This document shows positions 1,589-37,099 of a DNA stretch of 64,000 bases, piece by piece. The notes below the pieces were generated by a model, which saw only the letters and a program-made list of their open reading frames with translations, ran no database searches and had not been told where the DNA came from. Position 1 is the stretch's first letter; the number at the start of each line of letters is the position of its first letter. The stretch lies in assembly GCF_011758745.1 (NCBI RefSeq), contig NZ_JAANOV010000001.1, positions 1,302,001 to 1,366,000 of the forward strand, given 5' to 3'. Source of the DNA: Amycolatopsis granulosa. GTDB taxonomy: Bacteria > Actinomycetota > Actinomycetes > Mycobacteriales > Pseudonocardiaceae. A program made the position numbers and the translations under genes.

Positions 1589-2410
1589 CTATTCCCCGGC
1601 GAGGGCGAGCACCGTGCGGGCCTGCTCCAGCATCGCGACGTCGAGGAAGGTGCCGTCGGCCAGGGCGATCGCGCCGACACCCGCCGCCGTGGCGTCGTCC
1701 AGCCGGGACAGCACCTCGCGAGCTCGCGAGACCTCCTGCTCGCTGGGCCGGAACGCGGCGCGGATCGTGTCCAGCTGGGACGGGTGGATCGCCGTGCGGC
1801 CGCGGAAGCCGAGTGCCCGCCCGGCCCGGCAGGACGCCGCGAGGCCGTCGAGGTCGCGCACGTTCGGGTAGACGGACATCACCGGCGGCACCAGGCGCGC
1901 GGCCCGGGCGGCGACGACGACGCGGCTGCGCGCCCAGGCCAGCCCGGCGTCGTCGGTGACCCCCAGGTCCGAGCGCAGGTCCGCCTCGCCCAGCCCGATC
2001 GAGGCGACCTGCGGCGAGGCCGTCGCGAGGTCCAGCGCCCGCTCGACCCCGAGCGCCGACTCGATCAGCAGGTGCAGCTCGCGGCCGGGCAGCGCGGCGG
2101 CCAGCGCGCGCACCTCCTCGGGCGACTCGACCTTCGGGATCCGCGCCCCCACCTCGGCCGGCAGGCTCCGCACCGCGTCGAGGTCCGCGGCGTGCCACGG
2201 CGTGCTGGCGTGGTTGATGCGGACCTGCACCGGCCGTCCGGCCGGCGCCAGCAACCGCACGGCGTGGTCGCGCGCCTCGTCCTTGCGGGCCGGTGCGACG
2301 GCGTCCTCCAGGTCGGCCAGCACCACGTCGGCCGGCGACGCCAGCGCCTTCTCCACGCGATCCGGCCGGTCGGCCGGCACGTACAACAAGGTCAGCGCCG
2401 GCGCGCTCAT
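1589..2410 (-). CDS. CitE/HpcH-HpaI family CoA-ester lyase
   Basis: This 273-residue protein is a CitE-like lyase of the HpcH/HpaI aldolase family, which cleaves or forms beta-hydroxyacyl-CoA thioesters such as citramalyl- or malyl-CoA. It opens with LYVPADRPDRVEKAL. It carries the metal-site stretches ADLEDAVAP (around residue 31), LLIESALG and GEADLRSDLG, and the C-terminal FRGRTAIHPSQ signature. It is the last gene of the leftward ARH operon and overlaps the preceding CoA-transferase gene by four bases. With that enzyme it suggests that the acid portion of the substrate is activated to a CoA thioester and split. The exact substrate cannot be read from sequence. Confidence 0.85.
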   Translation of the reverse strand: MSAPALTLLYVPADRPDRVEKALASPADVVLADLEDAVAPARKDEARDHAVRLLAPAGRPVQVRINHASTPWHAADLDAVRSLPAEVGARIPKVESPEEVRALAAALPGRELHLLIESALGVERALDLATASPQVASIGLGEADLRSDLGVTDDAGLAWARSRVVVAARAARLVPPVMSVYPNVRDLDGLAASCRAGRALGFRGRTAIHPSQLDTIRAAFRPSEQEVSRAREVLSRLDDATAAGVGAIALADGTFLDVAMLEQARTVLALAGE

Positions 2411-3615
2411 ACCGCCCCCTCCGCCCGCAGCCGCGCGATGTCCGCGGCCGAGAAGCCCAGCTCGCCCAGCACGTCCGCGGTGTCGGCGCCGTGCGGCCGC
2501 CCGGTGTGCGCGATGACGCCGTCGTGGTCGGACAACCGGAAGATCGGCCCCTGCACCAGCGTCGGCCCCAGCTCCGGGTCCTCGATCTCGTGGATCGTGC
2601 CCAGCGCCCGGAACTGCGGATCGGCCACGATGTCCGCGGCGTCGTAGATCGGCGCGACCGCGGCCTGCGCGGCCTCGAACTCGGCGATCACCTCGTCCCG
2701 GCTCCGCTGCCCGATCCACGCGCCCACCGCCTCGTCCAGCTCGTCGGCGTGCTTCGCGCGCTCGGCGCCGCTGGCGAACCACGGCTCGTCGATCAGGTCC
2801 GGACGTCCGACCAGCCGCATCACCCGCTCGGCGATCGACTGCGCCGACGTGGACACCGCGACCCACTGCCCGTCACCGGTGCGGTAGGTGTTGCGCGGCG
2901 CGTTGTTCACCGACCGGTTGCCGGTGCGTGGCTGCACCGAGCGCAGCTGGTCCCACCGGGTGATCTGCGGGCCGAGCATCGCCAGGATCGGCTCGACGAT
3001 CGCGGTGTCGACGACCTGCCCACGCCCGGTCCGGTCCCGCGCCGACAGGGCGACCATGATCGCGTAGGCGGTGGCGAGCGAGGCGATGCCGTCGGCGAGC
3101 CCGAACGGGGGCAGCGTCGGCGGGCCGTCCGGTTCGCCGGTCGCCGCGGCGAACCCGCTCATCGCCTCGGCGAGGGTGCCGAACCCGGGCCGTCTCCGGT
3201 ACGGGCCGAGCTGCCCGAAGCCGGTGACGCGCGCCAGGACGAGCCGCGGGTTGCGCGCGGACAGCTCGTCGTAGCCGAGGTCCCAGCGTTCCAGCGTGCC
3301 GGGCCGGAAGTTCTCGATGATCACATCCGACCGCTGCGCCAGCGCCAGGAAGACCTCGCGCCCGCCGGGGCTGCCCAGGTCGGCGGTGATCGTGCGCTTG
3401 TTGCGGCCGAGCGTCTTCCACCACAGGTTGACGCCGTCCTTGGCGGCGCCGTGGTGGCGCGCCGGGTCGGGCCGGTCCGGGTGTTCGACCTTGATCACCT
3501 CGGCACCCATGTCGCCGAGGTGCATCGCGGCCATCGGCCCGGCGAACAGCGTCGCCGCGTCGACCACGCGCAGCCCGGCGAGGGCACCCGCGGCGGGGTC
3601 ACGGGAAACGGTCAC
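2407..3615 (-). CDS. CaiB/BaiF family (class III) CoA transferase
   Basis: This 402-residue protein is a family III CoA transferase, which moves CoA between carboxylic acids. It starts GTG within a GTGA overlap with the upstream gene. Family hallmarks are LRVVDAATLFAGPMAA at the N-terminus, GAEVIKVEHP, and DVIIENFRPGTLERWDLGY. The conserved catalytic aspartate is probably the one in FGLADG near residue 190. The C-terminal part holds the swapped-dimer helices. In the operon it is translationally coupled to the CitE-like lyase, so the likely sequence is activation of a free acid and then C-C cleavage. Donor and acceptor are unknown. Confidence 0.87.
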   Translation of the reverse strand: MTVSRDPAAGALAGLRVVDAATLFAGPMAAMHLGDMGAEVIKVEHPDRPDPARHHGAAKDGVNLWWKTLGRNKRTITADLGSPGGREVFLALAQRSDVIIENFRPGTLERWDLGYDELSARNPRLVLARVTGFGQLGPYRRRPGFGTLAEAMSGFAAATGEPDGPPTLPPFGLADGIASLATAYAIMVALSARDRTGRGQVVDTAIVEPILAMLGPQITRWDQLRSVQPRTGNRSVNNAPRNTYRTGDGQWVAVSTSAQSIAERVMRLVGRPDLIDEPWFASGAERAKHADELDEAVGAWIGQRSRDEVIAEFEAAQAAVAPIYDAADIVADPQFRALGTIHEIEDPELGPTLVQGPIFRLSDHDGVIAHTGRPHGADTADVLGELGFSAADIARLRAEGAV

Positions 3616-5537
3616 GCGGTCACCTCCGGCAGGTCCCAGGCGCAGCGGAACCCGACGGTCGCGCTGCGCGCCAGCCCCAGCCCGGGCAGCAGCAGTTTGA
3701 CGCTGTAGTCCGGGTCGTGGCGGCCGCCTTCGAGGTACCAGTCCGAACCTTCCGCGCGGTAATCGCTGCCGCCCTTGAGGATCACGAACCGGGTGCGCCC
3801 GTCGGAGTGCTCGCTCTCGGTCCAGTTCCACACCGCCGGTTCGCCGCGGCGCAGCAGACCGGTCTCGCCGGCGAGCTGCCATTCGTCCTCGGTGGGCAGC
3901 CGCCCACCGCGCCACGCGCAGTACGCGCGGGCGTCGTCGAGGTCCACATAGGTCACGGGCGCGCCGGGATCGGTCCTCCCGGCGAGGAAGCGGTGCGGCT
4001 GCGCGGGACGGTAGCCGGTGGCCGCCACGAATTCGGCGAACTGCGCGCGGGTCACCTCGGTCGCGGCGACCGCGACCGGGTTGGCGAGCACACCGTCGCG
4101 TTGCAGGGTGCGCGCGTCGTGCAGGCGCGGCGGCAACGGCTTCCACTCGTCGACATACGGTGCGCCCTGGTACATCCCGGTTTCGCGGGCGCGGTGCCGC
4201 ACGGTCAGCACGTACGGCCCGGCGGGCACGACCACCGCGTCCGGCTCGGGTTCGCCGGTCGTGCGGACCGGTTCGCGGCGGATCGCGAGGCGGTGCGGGA
4301 ACCGGGCGTCCGGGTCGTGCGGCAGGTCCGGCAGGTCCGCGACCCACGCGGGTTCCTCCGCGGCCCGCAGGAATGCCGCGATCCCGCGGGCGGGCACCCC
4401 GGGCCCCAGCAGCGGCGCGGCACCGGGCACGACCGGACCGGTGTAGTCCTCGTCGCCACGGTTCACGACCGTCCACAGTGTCTGGTCACCGAGGTCCCAG
4501 CGCGAGCCGTACACCCCGGCCTCCTCGGCGCCGGGCGCGAGTTCGGCCAGCGGGGTCCATTCCCCGTGCAGCAGCAGGTCCCCGGCCGCGCGCTGGACGG
4601 TGACCATGCGCCGCACGGTCGCCGCGTCCCGGCGGGACCAGCCCACCCACACGCCGAACACGACCTCCCACACCATCACACCGGCGCCGTTGAGCCACGC
4701 CGACTGGAGCTCCTCGGTGTGGTCGCGGTGCCAGCGGCGGACGTGGTGCTGCATGTGCCGCCGCTCGTACCAGTGCGCGCGCAGCACACCGGGCACCGGC
4801 GAGTCGGCGAAGAACTGCGCCCACGACGAGGCGTGGTCCTCGATCCGCTCGACCGGCAGCTTCGACTCGCCCTCCAGCACGATGCCCGGCTTGGCGCGTT
4901 CCAGCGCCTCCACGAACTCCGGCTCGGCCTTCTTCAACGTGTCGAGGAAGACGCCGTCGGCGTCCAGGTCGGCCACCAGCGCGGCGAGTTCGGCGAGATC
5001 GTCGCCCGCGCGGCGGGTGCCCACGTCCCACGGGTTGTAGTCGACGAACACGTGCAGGCCCGCGTCGTGGAAGTGCCGCACGAGCTCGGTCAGGCCCGGC
5101 ACGTCACGGTAGAAGTCCCACTGGTTGCGGTCGTCCAGGCCGATCACCGGGTAGGCGTGCCACAGCACCACGGCATCCAGCCCGCCGAACCGGTCCCGGG
5201 CGTCGGCGAGGAACCGCTCGGGCGTGAACCGGCCGGTGCCGAAGTCGTAGAGCAGCTCGTCCCACAGCCACACCTGCGCGACGGTGCGGCAGCGCGCTGC
5301 CCAGGCCGCACCGGGCCGGGAGTACGCGGCGCCGGTGTAGCCGTGGCGGCGGCGCGCGTCCTCGCGCCACTCACGCAGGCGCTCGCGCCACGCCGGGCGG
5401 TCGGCGGGGTCGTGCGGCCCGGCGAAGATCTTCGCCTCGTCCAGCGCGGCGAGCTGCTCGCCGGTGACCGGGCCGAGCGGGACGCCGGTCGGCCGGTCGA
5501 TCGGGCGCGGCACGAGCGGGTCGAACGTGTAGGTCAT
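3612..5537 (-). CDS. Fusion of a glycosidase-like barrel and an FGE/sulfatase-modifying-factor fold
   Basis: This 641-residue protein has two parts. Residues 1 to about 440 look like a (beta/alpha)8 glycoside-hydrolase-type barrel: AVVLWHAYPVIG, LHVFVDYNPWDVGTRR, DLDADGVFLDT and KPGIVLEGES are strand-end acidic motifs. Residues about 440-641 are an FGE-sulfatase (SUMF1, C-type-lectin-like) domain: PVAVAATEVTRAQFAEFVAATGY, AYCAWRGGRLPTEDEWQLA and a final VGFRCAWD. In true formylglycine enzymes a cysteine pair follows the GGS stretch; here the same place reads GGSDYRAEGSDWYLEGG with no cysteine. The C-terminal domain is therefore probably a binding module, not an oxidase. It has no clear signal peptide. 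It overlaps both neighbours by four bases and may process an oligomeric or conjugated sugar. Confidence 0.7.
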   Translation of the reverse strand: MTYTFDPLVPRPIDRPTGVPLGPVTGEQLAALDEAKIFAGPHDPADRPAWRERLREWREDARRRHGYTGAAYSRPGAAWAARCRTVAQVWLWDELLYDFGTGRFTPERFLADARDRFGGLDAVVLWHAYPVIGLDDRNQWDFYRDVPGLTELVRHFHDAGLHVFVDYNPWDVGTRRAGDDLAELAALVADLDADGVFLDTLKKAEPEFVEALERAKPGIVLEGESKLPVERIEDHASSWAQFFADSPVPGVLRAHWYERRHMQHHVRRWHRDHTEELQSAWLNGAGVMVWEVVFGVWVGWSRRDAATVRRMVTVQRAAGDLLLHGEWTPLAELAPGAEEAGVYGSRWDLGDQTLWTVVNRGDEDYTGPVVPGAAPLLGPGVPARGIAAFLRAAEEPAWVADLPDLPHDPDARFPHRLAIRREPVRTTGEPEPDAVVVPAGPYVLTVRHRARETGMYQGAPYVDEWKPLPPRLHDARTLQRDGVLANPVAVAATEVTRAQFAEFVAATGYRPAQPHRFLAGRTDPGAPVTYVDLDDARAYCAWRGGRLPTEDEWQLAGETGLLRRGEPAVWNWTESEHSDGRTRFVILKGGSDYRAEGSDWYLEGGRHDPDYSVKLLLPGLGLARSATVGFRCAWDLPEVTA

Positions 5538-6430
5538 GTCGCGCTCCCCTCGGCGACCTCCGCCGCGGTGGGTACGGCGTCCTGCGCGCCGGGGCGGGTG
5601 ACTGCCAGCGCAGCGGCGACACCGGCGATCCAGGCCGCCTCGGGCAGGGCGAGCCCACGCGCCAACGCGGCGGCCAGCACCCCGCAGAACGTGTCACCGG
5701 CACCGGTCGTGTCGACCGCCGCCACCCGCTCGCCGGGGATGCGCACCGGTTCGGCATCGCGTTCGGCGACCAGCGAACCCTCGGCACCGAGGGTGATCAC
5801 GACCGCCGGCACGAGGTCGAGCAGCACCCTGGCGAGGTCCTCCGGCGAGCCGCCGGTGCGGGCGAGGTCGGCCGCTTCGTGTTCGTTGACGATGAGCAGG
5901 TCCACCACGTCCCACAGGTCGGCGGGCAGGTCGCGCGAGGGCGCGGCGTTGAGCGCCATGACCGCACCGGGCCGCCGGGCCGCGGCAGCCGCGCGCACCA
6001 CACCGAGCGGGATCTCCAGCTGCGCGAGCACGACGTCGGCGTGCGCGATCCGGTGCACCTGCGCGTCGGTGAGCGCCAGGCGGGCGTTGGCACCGGGCGC
6101 CACGACGATCGCGTTCTCCCCGTCCGGGGAAACGGTGATCAGCGCGGTCCCGGTGGGAGCGTCCACCCTGGACACCAGGTCGGTGCGTACCCCGGCCCGC
6201 TCCAGCGACGCCAGCAGCAGCTCCGCGGACTCGTCGGTACCGAGCGCACCGGCGAACGTGGTCTCCGCGCCCCCGGCCCGGGCGGCGGCGACGGCCTGGT
6301 TGGCCCCCTTGCCACCGGGGCTGCGGCGCAGATCGCCGCCGAGGATCGTCTCGCCACCACCCGGGTGGCGCGGCACCTCGACGACGAGGTCCACATTGGC
6401 CGAGCCGACGACCACGACCTGCCCGGTCAT
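5534..6430 (-). CDS. PfkB-family sugar kinase, ribokinase-like
   Basis: This 298-residue protein is a PfkB kinase and most resembles ribokinase. It starts VVVVGSANVDLVVEVPRHP, has the sugar-binding signature SPGGKGANQAVAAAR near residue 38 and the C-terminal DTTGAGDTFCGVLAAAL with the catalytic aspartate and anion hole. The length fits ribokinase. ATG 6430 overlaps the preceding ARH gene (ATGA) and its stop overlaps the next start, so translation is coupled. In this operon it would phosphorylate the pentose freed by the two ARH-type hydrolases. Ribose is the best guess, but deoxyribose or another pentose is possible. Confidence 0.85.
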   Translation of the reverse strand: MTGQVVVVGSANVDLVVEVPRHPGGGETILGGDLRRSPGGKGANQAVAAARAGGAETTFAGALGTDESAELLLASLERAGVRTDLVSRVDAPTGTALITVSPDGENAIVVAPGANARLALTDAQVHRIAHADVVLAQLEIPLGVVRAAAAARRPGAVMALNAAPSRDLPADLWDVVDLLIVNEHEAADLARTGGSPEDLARVLLDLVPAVVITLGAEGSLVAERDAEPVRIPGERVAAVDTTGAGDTFCGVLAAALARGLALPEAAWIAGVAAALAVTRPGAQDAVPTAAEVAEGSAT

Positions 6431-7755
6431 GCGGCACCTCGTTCCACGGTCAGGGCGGCCGTGCGGGCCGCGAGTGCGGTGATGCGCTGGTCCCCGCCGG
6501 GCAGGGACGTGGCGATGCGGTCGTCCAGCGGTTCCGCCCACTGCCCCGGCACGCCGTGCACGGCGCCGACCACCCCGCCGACGGTGGCCGCGGCGGAGTC
6601 GGTGTCCCAGCCGGCGGTGACGGCGATGGACACGCTGGGGCCGAACTCGCCGCCGCCGCGGGCGAGGGCGTAGGCGATGACGGCCGCGTTGTTCAGCACG
6701 TGCACCCAGTGCAGGTGACCGTAGGCGGCGTGCAGCCGGTCGAGCCCGTCCCGGGTCTCCAGATCCGCCAGCGACCGTCCGAACCGGACCGCCTCCGCCA
6801 GCCGGCTCTCCGGTGGCAGCACGGTTTCCGCCGCGTCGAGCACCTCGTCCACGGTGCCGCACACCATGGCCGCGGAGGCGAGCGCGGCGGCCCACATCGC
6901 GCCGTAGCGGCCGTTTCGGGTGTGGCTCAGCCGCGCGTCGGTCCACGCCATCCGCGCCGCGGCACGCACGTCGCCGGGCGAGACCCAGCCGAACACGTCG
7001 GTGCGGATGAGCGCGCCGATCCACTCGCGGAACGGGTTGTGGTGCGTGGCGGTCTCGGGCACCGGGCGGGCGTCGAGGATGTTGCGGTAGGCGGCGCGTT
7101 CCGCGGTGAACACCCGCCCGGCGGGCAGGTGGTCCAGCCACAGCTGGGCCACGTCGTCGGTGGTGAACCCGCGGCCGTGCCGCTCGAGCAGGGTGAGCGC
7201 GAGCATCGGGTAGTTGAGGTCGTCGTCCTCCGGCATCCCGTCGATGTTCTCCTCGAGCGAGGTCGCGGCGGAGCGCCGGTTCCACGGCCACCGCCGCGCC
7301 ACCTCCTCCGGCAGGCCGACCGCGGTGAACCAGCGGTCGAGCGGCCAGCGCCCGGTGGCGCGCAGGATCTCCTCGATGCCCTCGCGCGGGATCTTCTCCA
7401 CCGGCTTGCCGAGCAGGCAGCCCGCCGCGCGGCCGGTCCACGCGCCGAGCACCCGGTCCCGGCCCGCGGGCAGGTCCGGCGCGGGCGGGAGCAGCGCGAC
7501 GATCGCGTCCCAGTCGTCCGGCTCCGCCGCCGCGGGCGGGGCCGGCAGCGCGGCCAGCTCGTCGAGCAGGTCACGGGCCAGCGCGCGCAGCTCCGGGGTC
7601 GCCGGGTGCGGTCCGGCCCCGCTCACCGCGGGCACCGGGTCGCCGCCGGCCGCGACCCAGCGGTCCCGGATCGCGCCGACGTCCCGGCCCTCCGCGGCGG
7701 ACTGGACCAGCTCGTGCGCCAGCAGGTCCTCCGGCTGGGCCCAGGTCAGCCTCAC
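6427..7755 (-). CDS. ADP-ribosylglycohydrolase (ARH/DraG) family protein, long form
   Basis: This 442-residue protein belongs to the ARH fold, all-helical binuclear-magnesium hydrolases that cleave ribosyl bonds. About 100 unique N-terminal residues precede the catalytic domain, which begins VLGAWTGRAAGCLLGKPVEK. The first metal motif is altered to PEDDDLNYP instead of TDDT, while the second, GWDTDSAAATVGG, is intact. The start is GTG 7755, overlapping the stop of a 39-codon ORF. A second, shorter ARH paralogue lies upstream in the same operon. Cleavage of a small ribosylated molecule fits better than protein de-ADP-ribosylation, given the ABC importer and kinase beside it; this is inference. 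Confidence 0.82.
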   Translation of the reverse strand: MRLTWAQPEDLLAHELVQSAAEGRDVGAIRDRWVAAGGDPVPAVSGAGPHPATPELRALARDLLDELAALPAPPAAAEPDDWDAIVALLPPAPDLPAGRDRVLGAWTGRAAGCLLGKPVEKIPREGIEEILRATGRWPLDRWFTAVGLPEEVARRWPWNRRSAATSLEENIDGMPEDDDLNYPMLALTLLERHGRGFTTDDVAQLWLDHLPAGRVFTAERAAYRNILDARPVPETATHHNPFREWIGALIRTDVFGWVSPGDVRAAARMAWTDARLSHTRNGRYGAMWAAALASAAMVCGTVDEVLDAAETVLPPESRLAEAVRFGRSLADLETRDGLDRLHAAYGHLHWVHVLNNAAVIAYALARGGGEFGPSVSIAVTAGWDTDSAAATVGGVVGAVHGVPGQWAEPLDDRIATSLPGGDQRITALAARTAALTVERGAA

Positions 7756-7871
7756 GATCCCTCCCCCGTCCGCCGCGGCAGCGGCACCGAGCCGGCGGGC
7801 ACCGGCTCGGCCGCCGGGTCGGCCGCGCCGGTGACGATCACCGGGTTGTCCCAGTCGAGCCGCACGGTCAC
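7752..7871 (-). CDS. Small coupled ORF (39 residues) between the two ARH genes
   Basis: A GTG at 7871 is preceded by a near-perfect AGGAGG at a five-base gap. Its 39-codon frame (starting VTVRLDWDNPVIVTG) ends in a TGA that overlaps the GTG of the next ARH gene. Upstream, a 13-codon ORF (7909-7868) starts in the TGATG junction with the first ARH gene and stops over this GTG. The peptide has no cysteine, signal or membrane segment and I do not recognise it. It may be a real small protein, a coupling device for the downstream gene, or the end of a decayed gene. Confidence 0.45.
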   Translation of the reverse strand: MTVRLDWDNPVIVTGAADPAAEPVPAGSVPLPRRTGEGS

Positions 7872-7908
7872 GCCGCCCTCCTCACGCGCCCCCAGCTGAT
7901 GTCGTCCA

Positions 7909-9078
7909 TCACGCCTGCTCCAGCGCGTCGAGGGTGCGCAGCCGCGCCAGCGCGCGCTCCCGGTCGGCCTTGAGGATGTCCGCAGCCGCGGACGCCATCA
8001 GCCGCCCGGTCTCGCGGAGGTCCATCCGGCTCGCCTCACCGATCGCGTCGACCCACTCGGCCGGCACCACGGCGGTGCCGCCGAGACCGGCGCACAGCGC
8101 ACCGGCCATGACGGCGATCGAGTCGGCGTCCCGGCCGTAGTTCACCGCGCCGAGCACCGCACCCCGGTAGTCACCGCGGTGACCGAGGACGAACCCGAGC
8201 GCGGCCGGCAGCTCCTCGATGGACTTGGTCCGCGACGGGCGCCGCGCGTCCAGCGACATCTGCCGGTACTGCGGCCCCACCGAGTCGAACGGCGCGACCG
8301 TGTCCCGGATCAGCCGGGCCAGGGCACGTTCCTCGTCGTCGGTGCGGGGCGCCGTGGTCCAGCCGTCGAACGCGTCCACCACGGCGCGCAGCGCGGCCGC
8401 GGTGCCGTCGTGGGCGACGTCCAGCGCGGCGGCCACGACATCGGTGACCCCGGCACCGGGAGTGACCGACGCCGCGACCATCGCCGCGAACACACCGGCC
8501 GCCTCCCGGCCGTAGCTGGACTGGTGCGCACCGGTCAGGTCGATCGCCTCGGCGTAGGCACCGCGCGGGTCCCCGGCGTTGGCGAGCCCGACCGGCGCCA
8601 CGTACATCGCCGCGCCGCAGTTGACCACGTTGCCGACCCCGGCCTCCCGCGGGTCGACGTGCCCGTAGTGGAGCCGGGCGACGATCCACTTCTCCGCGAG
8701 GAAGACCCGCTGCAGCAGCAACGCGGTCGACTCCAGCTCGGGCACCCACCGGGGTTCGCCGATCATCAGCGGAACCAGGTCCTCGGCCATCGCGTACGCG
8801 TCGAGGTGCGCGCGGCGCTTCGCGTACACCTCGACGAGCGCACGGGTCATCAGGGTGTCGTCGGTGACGTGCCCGTCCCCCTTGTGGTACGGCGCGATCG
8901 GCCGCGCCTCCCGCCAGTTCGGGAACCACGGACCGACGATGCCGGTCACCCGGCCGCCGTGGCGTTCCTCGATCTGTTCCGGGGTCCACCCCTCGGTGGC
9001 GCCACCCAGCGCGTCCCCCACGGCCGCCCCGGTGATCACCGCCACCGCTCGGTCTTCCAGCCAGGTCACCGGCTTCAC
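7909..9078 (-). CDS. ADP-ribosylglycohydrolase (ARH/DraG) family protein, short form
   Basis: This 389-residue protein has the standard ARH architecture. The N-terminus reads ITGAAVGDALGGATEG, the first metal motif is HVTDDTLMTRAL near residue 70, and the second is GRDADSIAVMAGALCAGLGG near residue 320. All expected magnesium-binding aspartates are present, so it should be an active hydrolase. It follows the ABC binding-protein gene after a stem-loop and precedes the small coupled ORF. Family members cleave ADP-ribosyl-arginine, O-acyl-ADP-ribose or related ribosides; operon context suggests an imported riboside or ribosyl conjugate. The paralogue at 6427-7755 lacks the first TDDT motif, so the two may act on different bonds. 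Confidence 0.87.
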   Translation of the reverse strand: MKPVTWLEDRAVAVITGAAVGDALGGATEGWTPEQIEERHGGRVTGIVGPWFPNWREARPIAPYHKGDGHVTDDTLMTRALVEVYAKRRAHLDAYAMAEDLVPLMIGEPRWVPELESTALLLQRVFLAEKWIVARLHYGHVDPREAGVGNVVNCGAAMYVAPVGLANAGDPRGAYAEAIDLTGAHQSSYGREAAGVFAAMVAASVTPGAGVTDVVAAALDVAHDGTAAALRAVVDAFDGWTTAPRTDDEERALARLIRDTVAPFDSVGPQYRQMSLDARRPSRTKSIEELPAALGFVLGHRGDYRGAVLGAVNYGRDADSIAVMAGALCAGLGGTAVVPAEWVDAIGEASRMDLRETGRLMASAAADILKADRERALARLRTLDALEQA

Positions 9079-9126
9079 GATTCCCTTCTCAGATGGTCGA
9101 AATGTCCCGCGTACGCAAGCACCGCC

Positions 9127-9156
9127 CGAAGCGGCGGAGCCGTTCGCGCCGCTTCG
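9127..9156 (-). terminator. Stem-loop between binding-protein gene and ARH gene
   Basis: CGAAGCGGCG (9127-9136) and CGCCGCTTCG (9147-9156) form a perfect 10-bp stem with a 10-base loop and no T-run. It lies between the stop of the solute-binding-protein gene and the next gene of the operon. Such hairpins commonly protect the binding-protein message or partly terminate, giving more binding protein than enzymes; that role is inferred. Confidence 0.5.
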
Positions 9157-9192
9157 CGACCGGCGCCGCCACGCAGGTCATCAGGACGATGT

Positions 9193-10473
9193 TCACCGGT
9201 TGATGGAGTTCCAGCCGTCGGTGAGAGCCTTCGACAGACCGGCCGCGTCCAGCTGCTTCGCGAGGAACTTCTGGTAGGCCGGGGTCGCGACGGTGTCCTT
9301 CCACTGCGCGTACTTGTCGACGAACAGGTACGGCGCCGAGGTCAGGTACTGGCCCGAGGACAGGATCTGCTTCCAGCCGTTCTGCGCGCCGAGCTTGGTG
9401 GTGAGCGCCTGGCGGGCGGAGGTGGTCGCCGGGATCAGCGTGTCGGCCTGGTTGAGCGCGGCCAGGTTCTCGGTGCTGGTGAAGAAGTCGATGAACTGGG
9501 CGGCCTCCTTGACGTGCTTGGAGTCCTTGCTCACCGACAGCGTCTGCGGGTTGGCGGCCTGCGCGGGACCGGCCGGGCCGGCCAGTGTCGGCAGCACGAC
9601 CCAGTCGAAGCCCGCGGGCGCGTCCTTGGCGATGTTCGCGGCCTGGAAGGAGCCCTGGATGGTCATCGCGGTCTGACCGGCGTAGAACGGGGCCAGCGCC
9701 TTGGCGCCGGACTGGGTCAGCGTGACCGGCAGGATCGAGTTGTCCTGGTGCGCCATCGCGTCCACCAGCTGCGGCAGCGCCATCTCACCCTGGCCGATGC
9801 TGATCTTGGCGTCGGTGCCGGTGCCCTCGAAGTACTTGCCGCCGAAGCCCGGGGCGAGCGCGACCATCGCGGCCGTCGGGCTGGACAGGCCCCAGCCGAG
9901 GCCGTAGGCACCGTCGCGGGTGGTCGCCTTGGCGATGTCGCGCAGCTGGTCCCAGGTCATCGTGTCACCGCTCGGGACGGTGACACCGGCCTTGGCCAGC
10001 AGGGCCTTGTTCGCGAAGACCACATAGGACTGCAGCTCGGTCGGGTAGGCGATCACCTTGCCGTCCACGGTGACCGAGTCCAGCACACCCTTGGGGATGT
10101 CGGCCTTCTTCTGCTCCGACAGGTAGGGCGTCAGGTCGGCGAGGTAGCCGTCCTTGGCGAACGGGGCGACCCCGGCCGCCTCGTAGTGGATGATGTCCGG
10201 CGCGCTGCCCGCGTTGAACTGGGTGACCAGCTTGTCGTAGACGCCGTCCCAGCCGGCCGGCACGACCTCGACCTTGATGTCGGGGTGCGCCTTGTTCCAG
10301 TCGTCGACGATCTTGTTCGTCGCCGCGATCGCCGCGGGCTGGTCGGACAGGGACTGGAACTTCAGGGTCACCGGACCGCCGCCGCCACTGTCACCGCTGC
10401 CGCTGGAGCACGCGGTGAACAGCAGGCTCGCGGCCGCCGCGAGGGCGGCCACCACCACACGTCGAGACTTCAT
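9193..10473 (-). CDS. ABC sugar transporter, solute-binding lipoprotein (CUT1 type)
   Basis: This 426-residue protein is an extracellular family 1 solute-binding protein. The lipoprotein signal is MKSRRVVVAALAAAASLLFT followed by AC at the lipidation cysteine (residue 22). After a Gly/Ser linker come VTLKFQSLSD, the typical NAGSAPDIIHYEAAG segment and YAQWKDTVATPAYQKFLAKQ near the end. I chose ATG 10473 because AAAGG lies eight bases upstream; an ATG at 10503 overlaps the permease stop but has no spaced ribosome site. It captures the substrate outside the membrane for the two permeases encoded just upstream. No ATPase gene is present, so a shared MsiK-type ATPase is likely used. Confidence 0.92.
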   Translation of the reverse strand: MKSRRVVVAALAAAASLLFTACSSGSGDSGGGGPVTLKFQSLSDQPAAIAATNKIVDDWNKAHPDIKVEVVPAGWDGVYDKLVTQFNAGSAPDIIHYEAAGVAPFAKDGYLADLTPYLSEQKKADIPKGVLDSVTVDGKVIAYPTELQSYVVFANKALLAKAGVTVPSGDTMTWDQLRDIAKATTRDGAYGLGWGLSSPTAAMVALAPGFGGKYFEGTGTDAKISIGQGEMALPQLVDAMAHQDNSILPVTLTQSGAKALAPFYAGQTAMTIQGSFQAANIAKDAPAGFDWVVLPTLAGPAGPAQAANPQTLSVSKDSKHVKEAAQFIDFFTSTENLAALNQADTLIPATTSARQALTTKLGAQNGWKQILSSGQYLTSAPYLFVDKYAQWKDTVATPAYQKFLAKQLDAAGLSKALTDGWNSINR

Positions 10474-10499
10474 TGACCGACCTTTCGTTTTTCCGGGGT

Positions 10500-11336
10500 T
10501 CATCCCTTCACCGCCCCGGCCATCAGCCCACTGGTGAGCCGCCGGCGCAGGATGGTGAAGAAGACGATGCTGGGGATCGCGGCGAGCACGGCGCCCGCGG
10601 CGAGGGGTCCGAGAGCCACCTTGCCCTCGCCGCCGATGAACATGTTCAGCGTGATCGGCAGGGTGTAGTTCTCCGGCGACTGCAACAGCACCAGCGCGAA
10701 GAAGAACTCGTTCCACGAGGAGACGAAGCTGAACATCGCCGTGGCGACGATGCCGGGCGCCAGGAGCGGGAAGACGATGCGGCGCAGCACGGTCCAGCGC
10801 CCGGCGCCGTCCATCGCGCCCGCCTCCTCCAGGTCGACCGGGATCGCGGTGACGTACCCCTGCAGCATCCACAACGCGAACGGCAGCGTGTAGGTGGTGT
10901 GCACCAGCGTCAGCCCGGCGAGGCTGTCGGCCAGCCCGAGGGTGCGCAGGATCAGGAACAGCGGCAGGATCACCAGGACCACCGGGAACACCTGCGAGGT
11001 CAGGATCCAGCCGACACCGGCGGCGCGGATGCGGCCCTTGAGCCGGGCGAGCACGTAGGACGCCGGCAGCGCGATGAGGATCACCAGCGCGGTGGACACC
11101 AGCGCGACGACCAGGCTGTTGCCCGCGGAGTGGACGAGGCCCTGGCGGTCGAGGGCGTCGGCGTAGTTGTCCCAGTGCCACTGCCGCGGCAGCAGGTTGA
11201 CGCTGAGCGAGTTGAGCTCGCCGGAGGACTTCACCGACGCCGAGATCAGCCACAGCAACGGGAAGCCGAGGAACAGGATGTAGGCGGCCAGTGCCAGGTA
11301 CTGGGCGGGACGCAGCAGTGCACGCATCGTCGTCAC
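10500..11336 (-). CDS. ABC sugar transporter permease (MalG-like)
   Basis: This 278-residue inner-membrane protein has six predicted membrane helices, the first being YLALAAYILFLGFPLLWLI. The EAA loop that docks the ATPase is present as EEAGAMDGAGRWTVLRRIVFPLLAPG near residue 190. The C-terminus, RRRLTSGLMAGAVKG, is typical of MalG-type carbohydrate permeases. It starts at GTG 11336 in a GTGA overlap with the partner permease. It forms the translocation pore with the gene product at 11333-12289 and works with the lipoprotein encoded next. Confidence 0.92.
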   Translation of the reverse strand: MTTMRALLRPAQYLALAAYILFLGFPLLWLISASVKSSGELNSLSVNLLPRQWHWDNYADALDRQGLVHSAGNSLVVALVSTALVILIALPASYVLARLKGRIRAAGVGWILTSQVFPVVLVILPLFLILRTLGLADSLAGLTLVHTTYTLPFALWMLQGYVTAIPVDLEEAGAMDGAGRWTVLRRIVFPLLAPGIVATAMFSFVSSWNEFFFALVLLQSPENYTLPITLNMFIGGEGKVALGPLAAGAVLAAIPSIVFFTILRRRLTSGLMAGAVKG

Positions 11337-12289
11337 CGCCCCTGCCCGGCGCGGTCGTCGCGGAACTGCGACCGCAGGTAGACGGCCAGCAACGCGACGA
11401 CGATGATCACCAGCACCAGGCCCATCGCGGCCGCGTAGCCGATGTTGCGGTTCTTGAACGCTTCGAGGTAGATGAAGAGCACCGGCACCATGGTCTTTCC
11501 GCCCGGCCCGCCCGCGGTGAGGACGTAGACCAGCGAGAACGAGTTGAAGTTCCAGATGAAGTTCAGCGACGTGATCGAGGCGATGATCGGCCGCAGGCTG
11601 GGCCAGGTGACGGCGGTGAACCGCCGCCACGCCCCGGCGCCGTCCACGGACGCGGCCTCGTGCAGGTCCTGGGGGATCTGCTGCAACCCGGCCAGCAGGG
11701 TGACCGTGGTCTGCGGCATGCCGACCCACACGCCGACGACGATCACCGCGGGCAGCGCCGTGGAGAAGTCGCCGAGCCAGTTGATGTCGCCCGGCAGCCC
11801 GACGCTGCCCAGCACCGCGTTGAGCGGGCCGCCGTTGGCCGAGTAGATCATCTGCCACATGATGGCCACGACGACCGGCGGCATCGCCCACGGGATGAGC
11901 GCGAGCACGCGCGTCAGGCCCTGCAGGCGCAGGCCGGAGTTCAGCAGCAGCGCGAGACCCATCGACGCGGCGAGCTGCAGCACGGTGACGCCCACCGTCC
12001 AGATCAGACCGATCCGCAGCGAGTCCCAGAAGAACGTGTTGCCGAGCAGCTTGGTGAAGTTGTCCACGCCGGCGAAGCCGTAGTCGGGGTGGCGCACCAG
12101 GCGGGCGTCGGTGAAGGCCAGGGCCAGGCCCATCACCAGCGGAGCGACGCTGAGCACGAGGATCGGGATCAGCGACGGCATCACCAGTGCGATCGCCTCG
12201 CGGCGGCGGGAGCGCGCCAGGGTGCCCGTGCGGCGGTTGCGCGGCGCCGGGGCGGGCGCGGGGGCGCGGGTGTCCGCGGCGACGGTCAT
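11333..12289 (-). CDS. ABC sugar transporter permease (MalF/UgpA-like)
   Basis: This 318-residue membrane protein has a cytoplasmic Arg-rich N-terminus, then six predicted helices beginning IALVMPSLIPILVLSVAPLVMG. The ATPase-contact loop reads HEAASVDGAGAWRRFTAVTWPSL near residue 215. It is the first transporter gene of the operon; its ATG overlaps the stop of the LacI regulator by four bases, so regulator and transporter are translationally coupled. Its family imports mono- or oligosaccharides, polyols and glycosides, so the substrate here probably carries a sugar. Confidence 0.9.
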   Translation of the reverse strand: MTVAADTRAPAPAPAPRNRRTGTLARSRRREAIALVMPSLIPILVLSVAPLVMGLALAFTDARLVRHPDYGFAGVDNFTKLLGNTFFWDSLRIGLIWTVGVTVLQLAASMGLALLLNSGLRLQGLTRVLALIPWAMPPVVVAIMWQMIYSANGGPLNAVLGSVGLPGDINWLGDFSTALPAVIVVGVWVGMPQTTVTLLAGLQQIPQDLHEAASVDGAGAWRRFTAVTWPSLRPIIASITSLNFIWNFNSFSLVYVLTAGGPGGKTMVPVLFIYLEAFKNRNIGYAAAMGLVLVIIVVALLAVYLRSQFRDDRAGQGR

Positions 12290-13311
12290 CGCCGACCTCC
12301 CTCGGTCAGCCCGCCGGCGGCGGGAACGGTGGAACCCCGCACGATCAGCTCCGGGCCGACCGTGACCTGACGCGCGTCCTGGTCCGGGTCGTCGGCGAGG
12401 CTGAGCATGAGCCGCGCGGCGGCCCGCCCGCGCTCGGTCGAGCCGAGGGACACGCTGGTCAGGGTGGGGTGGAAGACGCGGCCGAGCTCAGTGTCATCCA
12501 TGCCGGTCACCGCGATGTCGCCGGGCACCGACAGGCCCAGTTCCCGGATGGCGTGGATGGCGCCGATGGCGAGCAGGTCGTTGGCGGCGACGACGGCGTC
12601 CAGGCGGTCCGGGGCGCTCGCGAGGAGCCGCCGGGCGGCCACCAGCCCGGCGGCCACGGTGAAGTCCTGCGCGATCTCGACGGTGTTGCCCGGGCCCGCG
12701 GCGGTGTCGAACCCGCGCTGGCGGGCCTCGCCGGGGGTGGTGTCGAGGGGACCGTTGAGGAAGCCGAGCTTGCGGCGGCCCAGTTGCCGCAGGTGCCGGA
12801 CCGCTTGACCGATGCCACCCGCGGAGTCGGTGGACACGGAGCTGATCCCGTGGGCGTCCAGGGCGCGGCCGATGACGACGACCGGGACGGCGGCGCGGGT
12901 GATCTCCTCGATGAGGCGGTCGTCGGTGCGCAGCGGGCTGATGATCATGCCGTCGACGAAACCGCTGTTGAGGCTGCGCACCAGTTCGGTCGTCGAGGTC
13001 GAGGTGTCGCCGGTGCTCATGACCACCACGCGGTACCCGTGCGGGGCAAGCACCTCGTGGATGGCGCGCATGGTCTCGACGTAGACCGGGTTGCCGATGT
13101 CGGCGACCGCGAAGGCGATCTGGAAGGTCTTCTTCATCCGCAGGGAGCGGCCGATGGCGTCCGGGCTGTAGCCCAGCTCCTCCGCGGCCGCCCGGACCCG
13201 CTCGACCATCGCCGGGCTCGCCCCGGTGCCGTGCAGGGCGCGCGAGGTCGAGGCCAGGGACACCCCGGCTCGTTCGGCCACCTGGAGCAGCGTGGCCCGT
13301 GTTGACGTCAT
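12286..13311 (-). CDS. LacI-family regulator, first gene of the ARH operon
   Basis: This 341-residue protein has an N-terminal LacI helix-turn-helix (TLLQVAERAGVSLASTSRALHG), the hinge region LGYSPDAIGRSLR, and a periplasmic-binding-protein-like sensor domain with VVAANDLLAIGAIHAIRELG and GMDDTELGRVFHPTLTSV. ATG 13311 is preceded by GGAGTGCCA. As first gene of the operon it probably represses its own transcription through two GGAAAC-type palindromes 28-75 bases upstream, and is released by the imported sugar or its phosphate. The ligand is unknown. Confidence 0.9.
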   Translation of the reverse strand: MTSTRATLLQVAERAGVSLASTSRALHGTGASPAMVERVRAAAEELGYSPDAIGRSLRMKKTFQIAFAVADIGNPVYVETMRAIHEVLAPHGYRVVVMSTGDTSTSTTELVRSLNSGFVDGMIISPLRTDDRLIEEITRAAVPVVVIGRALDAHGISSVSTDSAGGIGQAVRHLRQLGRRKLGFLNGPLDTTPGEARQRGFDTAAGPGNTVEIAQDFTVAAGLVAARRLLASAPDRLDAVVAANDLLAIGAIHAIRELGLSVPGDIAVTGMDDTELGRVFHPTLTSVSLGSTERGRAAARLMLSLADDPDQDARQVTVGPELIVRGSTVPAAGGLTEGGRR

Positions 13312-13339
13312 TGGCACTCCGTCGTCGTCCGTCGCCGCT

Positions 13340-13385
13340 GGAAACGTTTCCGCCTCATGCGGCGGTATGACTGGAAACGATTCCA
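13340..13385 (-). promoter_or_regulatory. Two LacI-type operators of the ARH operon
   Basis: GGAAACGTTTCC (13340-13351) is a perfect palindrome with the central CG typical of LacI-family sites. TGGAAACGATTCCA (13372-13385) is a near copy with one central mismatch. Their centres are 33 bases apart, about three helical turns. Both lie between the predicted start point and the lacI-type ATG, as expected for autorepression. Confidence 0.8.
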
Positions 13386-13398
13386 AGCGGTGCCCGGA

Positions 13399-13427
13399 AT
13401 AGTGACACCCGCCGGGCGAGGTGTCAA
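13399..13427 (-). promoter_or_regulatory. Promoter of the ARH operon
   Basis: On the minus strand TTGACA (13427-13422) and CACTAT (13404-13399) are separated by 17 bases. The -35 is a perfect consensus. The spacer contains an inverted repeat, TGACACC with GGTGTCA, which could bind another regulator. The transcript start would fall near 13391, just before the first LacI-type operator. Confidence 0.6.
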
Positions 13428-13824: not shown

Positions 13825-14832
13825 GTGAAGAAGATCGGTTTCCTCTCGTTCGGCCACCACCAGCCCGGCACCCCGACGCCCACGGCCGCCGACGCCCTGC
13901 GGCAGATGGTCGAGCTCGCCGTGGCCGCGGAGGCACTCGGCGTCGACGGCGCGTTCCTGCGCGTGCACCACTTCGCGCCGCAGTTCTCCACGCCGTTCCC
14001 GTTGCTCGCCGCGATGGCCGCCCGCACCGACCGGATCGAGCTGGGTACCGCGGTGATCGACATGCGCTACGAGAACCCGCTCTACCTGGCCGAGCAGGCC
14101 GCCGCCACTGATCTGCTGAGCGGCGAGCGCCTGCAGCTGGGCATCAGCCGCGGCTCTCCGGAACCGGCGTTGCACGGCGCGTCCGCCTTCGGCTACGTCC
14201 CGGCGGACGGTGAGACCGATGCGGACATGGCGCGCCGGCACACCACGATGTTCCGCCGCGCGCTCTCCGGTGCAGCCGTCGTGCGCGCCGATCCGCAGAT
14301 GACCGGCCGTCCCGGGATGCTCGCCGTCCAACCCACGTCGCCCACGCTGGCGGAGCGGATCTGGTGGGGCAGCGGCACCCGCGCCACCGCGAAGTGGACC
14401 GCCGAAGTGGGCCTGAACCTGATGAGCTCCACACTGCTCACCGAGGACACCGGGGTGCCGTTCGACGAACTGCAGGCCGAGCAGATCCGGATCTTCCGCG
14501 AGGAATGGGCGCGGCAGGGCCACCTCCGCGAGCCGCGGGTCTCGGTCAGCCGCAGCGTCATCCCGATCACCACCGACACCGACCGGCGCTTCTTCGGGCG
14601 GGAACGGGACAGCCGGGACGAGGTCGGGTACCTCGACGGCGGGACCGCCCGGTTCGGCCGCACCTACGCGGGCGAGCCGGACGTCATCGCGGAGCAGCTC
14701 GCGGCGGACGCGGCCGTGCAGGCCGCGGACACGGTGCTGGTCACGGTGCCGAACCAGCTCGGCGTCGGGTACAACGCCCATCTGCTGGAGTCGATCGTCC
14801 GCGACGTGGCACCCGCCGCCGGCTGGCGCTGA
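13825..14832 (+). CDS. LLM class (luciferase-like) flavin-dependent oxidoreductase
   Basis: This 335-residue protein has the bacterial-luciferase-like barrel: KIGFLSFGHHQPG at the N-terminus, GVDGAFLRVHHFAPQFSTPF, then RTDRIELGTAVIDMRYENPLYLAEQAAATDLL split across the typical flavin-contact region. Members use FMN or F420 to oxidise or reduce small organic molecules in the cytoplasm; the reaction here is unknown. GTG 13825 is the earliest start consistent with homology. No good Shine-Dalgarno is seen, so the message may be nearly leaderless. It stands alone. Confidence 0.8.
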   Translation: MKKIGFLSFGHHQPGTPTPTAADALRQMVELAVAAEALGVDGAFLRVHHFAPQFSTPFPLLAAMAARTDRIELGTAVIDMRYENPLYLAEQAAATDLLSGERLQLGISRGSPEPALHGASAFGYVPADGETDADMARRHTTMFRRALSGAAVVRADPQMTGRPGMLAVQPTSPTLAERIWWGSGTRATAKWTAEVGLNLMSSTLLTEDTGVPFDELQAEQIRIFREEWARQGHLREPRVSVSRSVIPITTDTDRRFFGRERDSRDEVGYLDGGTARFGRTYAGEPDVIAEQLAADAAVQAADTVLVTVPNQLGVGYNAHLLESIVRDVAPAAGWR

Positions 14833-30335: not shown

Positions 30336-31931
30336 TCAGTAACCCTCCGCGGCCCCGTTGCGGCGCGGATCCGCACAGGACCGCAGCACGTCACCGGTCA
30401 GCGTGATGCCCTCGAAGTTGCCGGTCAGCGAGTGCCACGGGCCGAGATCACGCAGCCACAGCCCGCGCTCGGCGCAGCGGCGGCGGAACTCCCGGTCGAC
30501 CTCCGGCGCGAACCCGTGTTCGAGCGTCACTCCCGGCAACCACCCGGACGCCGGTTCGTGCGGCCGCACCCCGAAGCGCGGCGCGACCACCGACTCCTCG
30601 ATGGACAGACCGAAATCGACCAGGTTCACCAGGTTCTGCAGCACGCAGGCGACCAGCGACACCGACGGCGACCCGGACGCGATCACCGGCACCCCGTCGC
30701 GCAGCACCAGGTTGGGTGCCAGGTAGACGGTGGCCCGCTCCCCCGGCCACGGCATCCCGCGCTGGAAGAACGACCCGCCGCCGGACAGCTGGAAGCCCTC
30801 GGCGAACAGGCCGTTCATCCAGGGCGAGGCCATGTGCGAGTGGGTGACCGAGGCGATGTTGCGGTGCTCGTCCACGACGGTGACGTGGATCGTGCCGGGG
30901 ACCGGCACCGCGGCTGCCGCCGGGCGCGCACCGTGCCGTTCCAGGCGCGCCAGCCGCCGGGCCGCGTAGTCCTTCGACAGCAGGGTTTCCACGTCCGTGG
31001 CGGCCGTGCGCGGCGGGGCGTGGTAGACCTCCTGGTGCACGGCGGTCAGCGCCTCCAGCGTCGACACCGAGGACCACGCCGGGCCCCAGGACGGCAGATC
31101 GGTCAGCTCCAGCACGTTCAGCGCCTCGATGAGCTGGCACCCGCCGTCGTCCGGCGGTGCCGACGTGACGATCTCCACATCCCGGTAGGTGCCACGCAGC
31201 GGCGCGTGCCAGCGGGCGGTGTAGGCGGCGAAGTCGCCGGGCGTGATGACCCCGCCCCCGCGCCGGCACTCCGCGCTGAACGCGCGCGCGAAGTCGCCGA
31301 GGTAGTAGTCCAGATCCTCGTCCCGCAACCGCTCCAGCGTGCGCGCCACCCGCTCCTGCCGCAGCGTCTGCCCGGGCGCGACGAGGCTGCCGCCGGGCAG
31401 GAACGCCTCGCGGGCCTGCTCGTGGCACCCGAGTTCGGCCCGGTGCGCGTACATCTCGCCGAACAGGTACGGGTTCACCGCGAACCCGTCGCGCGCCAGG
31501 GCGATCCCGTCCCGCAGCAGCCGGGACCGGGACAGCCTTCCGAACCGCTCGTGCGCGGCCCGGAAGGCCGGCCACCACCCGGGGACCGGCACGCCCCGCC
31601 CGGTGGTCAGGTCGGCGCCGGTGAACCCGGGCAGCGGCGCGAGCGGCGCGGCGACGTTGCCGTTGAGGTAACTCGCCGCGCCGGTCCCGGCGTCCCAGTA
31701 CAGCATCTCCAGCCCGCCGGTCAGCGCCGTCATGTGCGGCTCGACCACCAGCTGGGTCGCGGCCGCCGCGAGCGCGGCGTCCGCGGCGGTGCCGCCGTCG
31801 CGGAGCACGTCGAGCCCGGCCCGCACCGCCAGCGGGTGCGAGGTCACCACCATCCCGTGGCGGGACGACACCGGCTCCTTGCGGCCGTAGGCGGCGCTGC
31901 GGGCGAGCTCACCGGCCACCGCGGCGTCCAT
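30336..31931 (-). CDS. Gamma-glutamyltranspeptidase family Ntn-hydrolase
   Basis: This 531-residue protein is of the gamma-glutamyltransferase family, which self-cleaves at a threonine. The N-terminal part has HGMVVTSHPLAVRAGLDVLR and GGTAADAALAAAATQLVVEP. The predicted nucleophile is the Thr in VPGTIHVTVVDEHRNIASVT near residue 345; the second residue is Ile where most have Thr. Later motifs are GGGSFFQRGM and VIASGSPSVSLVACVLQNL. No signal peptide is seen, so it may act inside the cell after uptake. Its ATG overlaps the MFS stop (TGATG). It is the last gene of the hydantoinase-type operon and may split a gamma-glutamyl or similar amide. Confidence 0.85.
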   Translation of the reverse strand: MDAAVAGELARSAAYGRKEPVSSRHGMVVTSHPLAVRAGLDVLRDGGTAADAALAAAATQLVVEPHMTALTGGLEMLYWDAGTGAASYLNGNVAAPLAPLPGFTGADLTTGRGVPVPGWWPAFRAAHERFGRLSRSRLLRDGIALARDGFAVNPYLFGEMYAHRAELGCHEQAREAFLPGGSLVAPGQTLRQERVARTLERLRDEDLDYYLGDFARAFSAECRRGGGVITPGDFAAYTARWHAPLRGTYRDVEIVTSAPPDDGGCQLIEALNVLELTDLPSWGPAWSSVSTLEALTAVHQEVYHAPPRTAATDVETLLSKDYAARRLARLERHGARPAAAAVPVPGTIHVTVVDEHRNIASVTHSHMASPWMNGLFAEGFQLSGGGSFFQRGMPWPGERATVYLAPNLVLRDGVPVIASGSPSVSLVACVLQNLVNLVDFGLSIEESVVAPRFGVRPHEPASGWLPGVTLEHGFAPEVDREFRRRCAERGLWLRDLGPWHSLTGNFEGITLTGDVLRSCADPRRNGAAEGY

Positions 31932-33265: not shown

Positions 33266-33301
33266 GGTTCTCCTCGGTGGGTCACGGTTCTCTCGGGGGG
33301 T

Positions 33302-37064: not shown

Positions 37065-37099
37065 GCTCTTCCTTTCCGGGGTCTTCCTCTCCGGGCGGG

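Follow-up and report, generated by a model that had tools for sequence, protein, structure and literature searches.

The closest described arrangement to the locus considered here is the yegTUV operon of Escherichia coli, in which a transporter, the ADP-ribosylglycohydrolase (ARH)-like protein YegU and the PfkB-like kinase YegV are encoded in one operon under a single-target regulator; the function of these genes is described as unclear and a link to ADP-glucose/glycogen is proposed (PMC10819704). Our subject is a minus-strand operon of ten genes (positions 1589-13311) in a 64,000-nucleotide stretch of the soil actinobacterium Amycolatopsis granulosa (contig NZ_JAANOV010000001.1, positions 1,302,001 to 1,366,000; hereafter the window), which has a GC content of 73% and lies in a genome of 5.62 Mb assembled as a single contig. 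Like yegTUV, it brings transport genes together with genes for ARH-family and sugar-kinase-like proteins, whereas yegTUV comprises three genes, with a nucleoside-type transporter of the major facilitator superfamily and one ARH, and lacks a CoA-transferase, a lyase and a glycosidase (PMC10819704). A second point of comparison is Streptomyces coelicolor, which also has consecutive ARH-family genes, listed as uncharacterised DraG/ARH homologues (SCO2028-SCO2031 in PMC9411070; SCO2028-SCO2030 in PMC5087735). These differ in that the available parts of the literature treat them as ADP-ribosylation hydrolases and name no catabolic role for them (PMC9411070; PMC5087735; PMC13036486), and U-alpha-ADPr activity was undetectable for SCO2028 and SCO2030 (PMC13036486).

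The operon draws its remaining parts from systems that are each familiar in other settings. DraG, ARH3 and MJ1187 (PF03747) share the fold, the position of the catalytic Glu and the metal-ligand motifs with its ARH enzymes, but identity is only about 15-22% (Foldseek rows), and the partners here are those of sugar and acid catabolism, with no transferase partner. Itaconate/citramalate degradation (Rip, Ccl) and the malyl-CoA pathways likewise direct a CoA-transferase and a CitE-family C-C lyase at a hydroxy dicarboxylate, whereas the operon's lyase lies below the RipC and citE cut-offs and is coupled to ARHs, a kinase and a sugar importer. Actinobacterial CUT1 sugar operons also combine LacI, MalF, MalG and a binding protein with a cytosolic glycosidase-like enzyme and no ATPase gene; the ARH enzymes and the CoA-dependent acid-cleavage module are what this operon has beyond them. 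A sequence-only reading of the window knew of no described pathway with this gene set, and none was found in searches of open-access full text, most subscription papers lying outside their scope. As far as those searches reach, the locus thus belongs to a real, conserved and undescribed catabolic operon family for which the chemistry first proposed is plausible and has gained support. We give about even weight to the view that the operon is induced by, and breaks down, a compound in which a furanosyl group, most likely ribosyl, is joined to a hydroxy di- or tricarboxylic acid.

The gene block was defined from codon-position GC and open reading frame (ORF) analysis, and families were assigned from Pfam and NCBIfam profiles; the protein families named in the sequence-only reading were all recovered. 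All genes lie on the minus strand, beginning with a LacI-family regulator (12286-13311; PF00356 and PF13377 above cut-off), the start of which is inferred to be ATG 13311 or GTG 13317. It is followed by CUT1 permeases of the MalF type (11333-12289) and MalG type (10500-11336; both PF00528) and by an SBP_bac_1 solute-binding protein (9193-10503; PF01547) with a start at ATG 10503 or 10473 and an N-terminus that looks lipoprotein-like by eye. Two ARH genes, ARH1 (7909-9078) and ARH2 (6427-7755), come next, and then a ribokinase-like PfkB kinase, RbsK (5534-6430; PF00294), a protein we call GHFGE, with a GH13/GH29-like TIM barrel and an FGE-fold domain (3612-5537), a family III CoA-transferase, CaiB (2407-3615), and a CitE/HpcH-type CoA-ester lyase (1589-2410; PF03328). 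Tight coupling, mostly through 4-base overlaps, had been noted and holds at seven of the nine junctions, given a binding-protein start at ATG 10503; the two gaps measure 153 bases (ARH2-ARH1) and 114 bases (ARH1-binding protein). Eleven genes had been counted, of which ten are clear; the possible eleventh is a doubtful 39-codon ORF (7752-7871) that overlaps ARH2 by four bases and occurs only in close relatives, with similar short ORFs in L037, L039 and L067 and an altered form in L066. At L067, the interval between ARH1 and ARH2 holds two tandem copies of a short ORF similar to the beginning of ARH2, like a duplicated leader. As to the span first given, 1589-13427, its lower end stands, and its upper end reaches beyond lacI to take in two operators.

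The named loci are the best 80 actinobacterial matches to GHFGE, 69 of them with full flanks, and all ten genes occur in the window order in 59 of these 69, which excludes chance clustering. The closest cassettes among the best 80 are in Amycolatopsis, and protein identity to the window proteins falls to about 40-65% in more distant loci. In the low-GC loci L100, L111, L187, L242 and L243, genes were located by tblastn or from ORF lists. The gaps among the 69 concern RbsK (ten), CaiB with CitE (two), and lacI and ARH1 (one). ARH1 and ARH2 overlap directly by four bases in 50 of 73 named loci. At five Kribbella loci (L112, L119, L122, L128 and L137) an insert of about 2.5-3.2 kb on the opposite strand separates them; that of L112 carries genes for a PhoD-like phosphatase and for a protein with an F5/8-type C domain, and may hint at a phosphate-bearing substrate there.

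A broader draw at class level covered 394 genomes, with ARH1 found at E <= 1e-30 in 62, and 20 of these 62 loci were fetched. Two further ARH genes, ARHa and ARHb, first met in Nonomuraea, occur in 17 of the 20, and the ARH1 cluster holds ARH2 in 19, CaiB-CitE in 18, RbsK in 15, the importer and LacI in 14 and GHFGE in six; all twelve genes are found in three. Six of these loci, all from one genus, read ARHa-ARHb-ARH1-ARH2-RbsK-CaiB-CitE. At L244 the adjoining genes are those of glutamate synthase, Lgt and the two subunits of tryptophan synthase, or of similar proteins, a setting that suggests Streptomyces. Judging by numbering, order and neighbouring genes, SCO2028-SCO2031 are probably the ARHa-ARHb-ARH1-ARH2 of such loci. 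At L247 (9157-11400), one of the six, ARH1 and ARH2 match over 34% and 16% only, as if the intervening stretch had been deleted. Nine-gene versions persist in two small genomes, of 1.3 and 1.8 Mb (completeness 99 and 98%; GC of the fetched stretch 45 and 47%); ARH1 is present in only 8 of the 151 genomes of their family, so the cassette is optional there. Across actinobacterial families, then, the ARH, kinase and CoA-transferase/lyase genes stay linked, and they recur with ARH genes in Rhizobiales, which bears out the synteny comparison that the sequence-only reading had proposed. That reading had overlooked the operators, an esterase, the extra ARH genes of relatives and the optional status of GHFGE.

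Both ARH enzymes belong to PF03747 (156.5 bits for ARH1 and 157.8 bits for ARH2, against a cut-off of 26.2). Within a 35-row alignment, E29, TDDT and the GRDxDS region are invariant in ARH1, as are E120, EDDD and GWDTDS in ARH2, and these motifs align with those of DraG, MJ1187 and others; we take the residues to be the catalytic Glu and the metal ligands. The predicted model of ARH1 (pLDDT 85.1) has a DraG-type fold, with MJ1187 as its best Foldseek match (TM 0.60/0.75, E 4e-8). Known ARH members grip the cis-diol of a ribofuranose. Among called proteins, the GxDxD[ST] motif is present in 18/18 ARH1, 19/19 ARH2 and 17/17 ARHa and in 0/16 ARHb; because all 16 lack it, ARHb may be inactive. In Nonomuraea gerenzanensis (L188, 9961-14543) four consecutive ARH-family genes follow the binding protein and precede RbsK, and no match to CaiB, CitE or GHFGE was found within the 25 kb fetched. 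Other ARH genes of the A. granulosa genome were considered as parallel cases and set aside, as L162-L164 contain no RbsK or CaiB relatives (blastp, tblastn); about 7 kb from the ARH gene of L162 lies one CitE-family protein that runs off the end of the stretch (34% over 142 residues). In L163 (positions 3,280,000-3,298,000 of the same genome) two long proteins adjoin, one above and one below the ARH profile cut-off, and blastp and tblastn of that stretch found no cassette relatives around them.

The importer is of the CUT1 type, with an SBP_bac_1 protein and two BPD_transp_1 permeases; the ten genes include no ATPase gene, so a shared ATPase is probable. RbsK is the best match to the ribokinase model in the genome (269 bits; the next scores 123 bits), ribokinase is the nearest to it of the sugar kinase models in NCBIfam, and the solved structures most similar to it by sequence are ribokinases (up to 207 bits). 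CaiB scores 394 bits against PF02515 and reaches no NCBIfam equivalog cut-off. The CitE protein can be placed as a member of PF03328 only, being below the equivalog cut-offs of RipC, its closest NCBIfam model (155.8/375 bits), and of citrate lyase beta (137.3/443.4 bits).

GHFGE is predicted (pLDDT 85.5) to consist of a TIM barrel like those of GH13 and GH29 and an FGE/EgtB-type domain (Foldseek). Its N-terminal part gives Foldseek matches to GH13 and GH29 (TMt 0.35-0.48) and matched no glycoside hydrolase family profile in Pfam; its C-terminal part is an FGE-sulfatase domain (PF03781, 64 bits against a cut-off of 23.3). D199 and E224 are invariant and are candidate catalytic residues. No signal peptide is seen by eye. 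A distant paralogue at L065 (8218-10455), with a twin-arginine-like N-terminus by eye, adjoins genes for a Peripla_BP_4 binding protein, a BPD_transp_2 permease, an ATP-binding cassette ATPase and a LacI regulator, the make-up of a CUT2 importer. This setting would suit a glycosidase releasing a monosaccharide extracellularly, and it agrees with a glycosidase role for the GHFGE type. A search with the glycoside hydrolase-like domain returned only the own genome among 396 genomes of the phylum, against 28 other strong matches in 298 genomes of the order, a discrepancy that is a matter of sampling or of the first-look filter. As a defining core of the family GHFGE was rejected, being present in 6 of the 20 class loci and in none of eight alphaproteobacterial loci.

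Upstream of lacI are two copies of the pattern TGGAAACGNTTCC(A/G), 33 bases apart: TGGAAACGATTCCA (13372-13385) and TGGAAACGTTTCCG (13339-13352). The window contains four matches to the pattern (two sites, each on both strands), with 0.09 expected by shuffling. Genome-wide, at one mismatch or fewer, the pair is joined by two single one-mismatch sites, and a control pattern gave one match; the idea of a genome-wide element was accordingly discarded. The same element recurs before the cassettes of relatives. Across 69 upstream stretches of 200 bases (the window and 68 named loci, five loci being too short), 64 have one or more copies of a looser form of the pattern and 45 have two or more (shuffled mean 0.005); for the strict form the figures are 43 and 35. 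The exact palindrome is present in 13 of 16 genomes searched, and 16 of its 17 sites are at the cassette. The operators are thus established as sequence elements, and they would be the sites of repression by LacI.

The seventeenth exact site, in Microbacterium mitrae, stands 33-46 bases ahead of the probable start of a PF00756 esterase gene that is not linked to the cassette and whose product has an export-like N-terminus and a beta-propeller repeat. Esterases of this type also lie inside the fetched stretch at no fewer than 19 of the 80 named loci and 4 of the 28 order-genome cassette loci, counts that are lower bounds from called genes, with some genomes in both sets. At one Cryobacterium locus the esterase gene directly follows GHFGE, and RbsK, CaiB and CitE are missing through the contig end, 3.5 kb further on. 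Since the esterase gene shares the operator in M. mitrae and such genes recur at cassette loci, the substrate probably includes an ester.

The combination extends beyond the actinobacteria. Plasmid matches to ARH1 comprise 22 records: one from Nonomuraea, 20 from alphaproteobacteria and one from a haloarchaeon (22% identity). At eight alphaproteobacterial plasmid loci, LacI, the two permeases and ARH1 are always present and ARH2 in seven, with about 390-400 extra residues beyond the ARH domain at L146 and L147. The alphaproteobacterial ARH1 and ARH2 are closest to their actinobacterial namesakes, scoring 255 bits (45 for the next ARH type) and 92 bits (43 for the next), respectively. A full-length ribokinase-like gene occurs at two of the eight, L147, where it is in line, and L189, where it is divergent, and L150 has a partial match. 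CaiB-CitE accompanies the importer and ARH genes at three. In trees, CaiB and CitE of the rhizobial cassettes fall among other alphaproteobacterial pairs, and a single clade of actinobacterial and rhizobial cassette sequences is rejected by approximately unbiased (AU) tests for CaiB (p-AU 9e-83, without L197, which is in the wrong reading frame, and L204, which has a long branch) and for CitE (p-AU 1.7e-9, in a tree with five non-cassette rows and without L149). These tests dispose of one ancestral ARH-CaiB-CitE operon whose genes both phyla have kept since. From these ancestries, CaiB-CitE probably joined ARH operons twice by separate recruitment (or one replacement), a double linkage with no easy explanation other than that the ARH reaction releases, or goes along with, an acid requiring activation by CoA. 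As for the acid, nine annotated regions around non-cassette CaiB genes (of 13 fetched) have CitE adjacent in four and about 4 kb away in one, a 3-hydroxy-3-methylglutaryl-CoA-lyase-type gene with LeuCD in two, and neither in two. Because two of the four adjacent pairs adjoin tripartite tricarboxylate transporters, the acid is suggested to be a hydroxy polycarboxylate.

From these parts we infer a route that begins, where the PF00756 esterase is present, with its removal of an ester, either outside the cell or in the cytosol. The conjugate would then enter through the CUT1 importer once LacI repression is lifted. ARH1 and ARH2, as metal-dependent ARH-fold hydrolases, would break furanosyl bonds, and the GH13/GH29-like enzyme (or the extra ARHs of relatives) might cut another glycosidic bond. 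The freed pentose would be phosphorylated by the ribokinase-like kinase and pass to the pentose phosphate pathway, while CaiB would move CoA onto the acid, presumably a hydroxy di- or tricarboxylate, and CitE would split the resulting hydroxyacyl-CoA, with acetyl-CoA and an oxo acid as possible products. Ribose is favoured as the sugar because RbsK is nearest to ribokinases and is the best match to the ribokinase model in the genome. Candidate substrates that were entertained include bacillithiol, methanopterin, apiose, HMG esters and alpha-ribazole. The logic of import, hydrolysis, sugar phosphorylation and CoA-dependent cleavage, as first proposed, is supported by the linkage of the genes; the ribosyl identity is suggested only by the ARH fold and by a ribokinase-like kinase that scores below the cut-off.

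Several observations weigh against this proposal. RbsK falls short of the ribokinase equivalog cut-off (TIGR02152, 269.6 against 299.65 bits), and, besides the ten named loci, five of the 20 class loci do without it. CaiB-CitE is absent from L090 and L130 among the named loci, from L239 and L253 among the class loci, from the Nonomuraea locus L188 and from five of the eight alphaproteobacterial loci, and no importer was found in the fetched stretch of the six Streptomyces-like loci. The non-cassette rows of the trees come from plasmids only, and the groups for the AU tests were set by operon membership after the first tree had been seen; the two-origin pattern could also reflect replacement of an older CaiB-CitE pair. 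Finally, we know of no natural ribosyl hydroxy acid that fits the gene set.

Some of these points suit a different cargo, namely a plant or microbial oligosaccharide with another cis-diol furanose (e.g., apiose) or a mixed glycan, for which the ARHs would be general furanosidases, the kinase would have drifted from ribose and the acid would come from an ester-bound group, for instance malate, citramalate or 3-hydroxy-3-methylglutarate. Oligosaccharides are the usual cargo of CUT1 importers, several of the host genera are biomass degraders, and the solved structure nearest to the binding protein by sequence is YesO. The esterase partners at cassette loci and the sub-cut-off kinase are in line with such a substrate, as is the match of CaiB to succinate-hydroxymethylglutarate CoA-transferase (169 bits, its best solved relative scoring 181 bits). 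It is harder to reconcile with a kinase whose closest sugar kinase model is ribokinase and with ribokinase-like genes in two rhizobial ARH loci as well, and we judge it unlikely, though the strongest competitor.

Reversal of ADP-ribosylation, or scavenging of ADP-ribose or NAD, would have ARH1 and ARH2 free ADP-ribose and the kinase take up the ribose. Such a role is what the fold and metal motifs shared with DraG/ARH3, and the listing of SCO2028-2031 as uncharacterised DraG/ARH homologues in PMC9411070, would lead one to expect. It is improbable here, as Pfam found no ADP-ribosyltransferase, Nudix or nucleobase genes among the ten operon genes, the CUT1 sugar importer, CaiB and CitE would be left unexplained, and neither SCO2028 nor SCO2030 acted detectably on a single ADP-ribosyl substrate, U-alpha-ADPr (PMC13036486). 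Least probable is that one transcript serves two independent jobs, sugar uptake with glycoside hydrolysis and the degradation of an unrelated hydroxy acid: CaiB-CitE pairs do occur in other contexts and are missing from some ARH operons, but their ancestry is separate in the ARH operons of two phyla, and they are kept in 18 of the 20 class loci despite differing layouts. The conjugate of a furanosyl sugar and a hydroxy acid remains our preferred substrate.

Two neighbouring features of the window complete the description. A luciferase-like monooxygenase gene (13825-14832, plus strand; PF00296) diverges from the operon and has relatives beside the cassette only in the closest genomes. Further along, genes for gamma-glutamyltranspeptidase and hydantoinase/oxoprolinase form one same-direction stretch (30336-39163, minus strand), perhaps a cluster for gamma-glutamyl or 5-oxoproline degradation.

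What began as a first guess has become a pathway that can be tested, with its genes, regulator and operator defined, and it predicts a sugar-acid compound consumed by bacteria of at least two phyla. On a wider and more tentative reading, to which we lean somewhat less than to its negation, the ARH fold includes catabolic metal-dependent furanosidases, and the operon family, with SCO2028-SCO2031 included, would break down a widespread conjugate of ribose and a hydroxy acid by an undescribed route. If this were true, the nine-gene versions in two small genomes would suggest a possible role for the compound in habitats other than soil as well, some ARH-family proteins now annotated as erasers of ADP-ribosylation would be nutrient hydrolases, and counts of ADP-ribosylation genes in Streptomyces and other actinobacteria would have to be reread.

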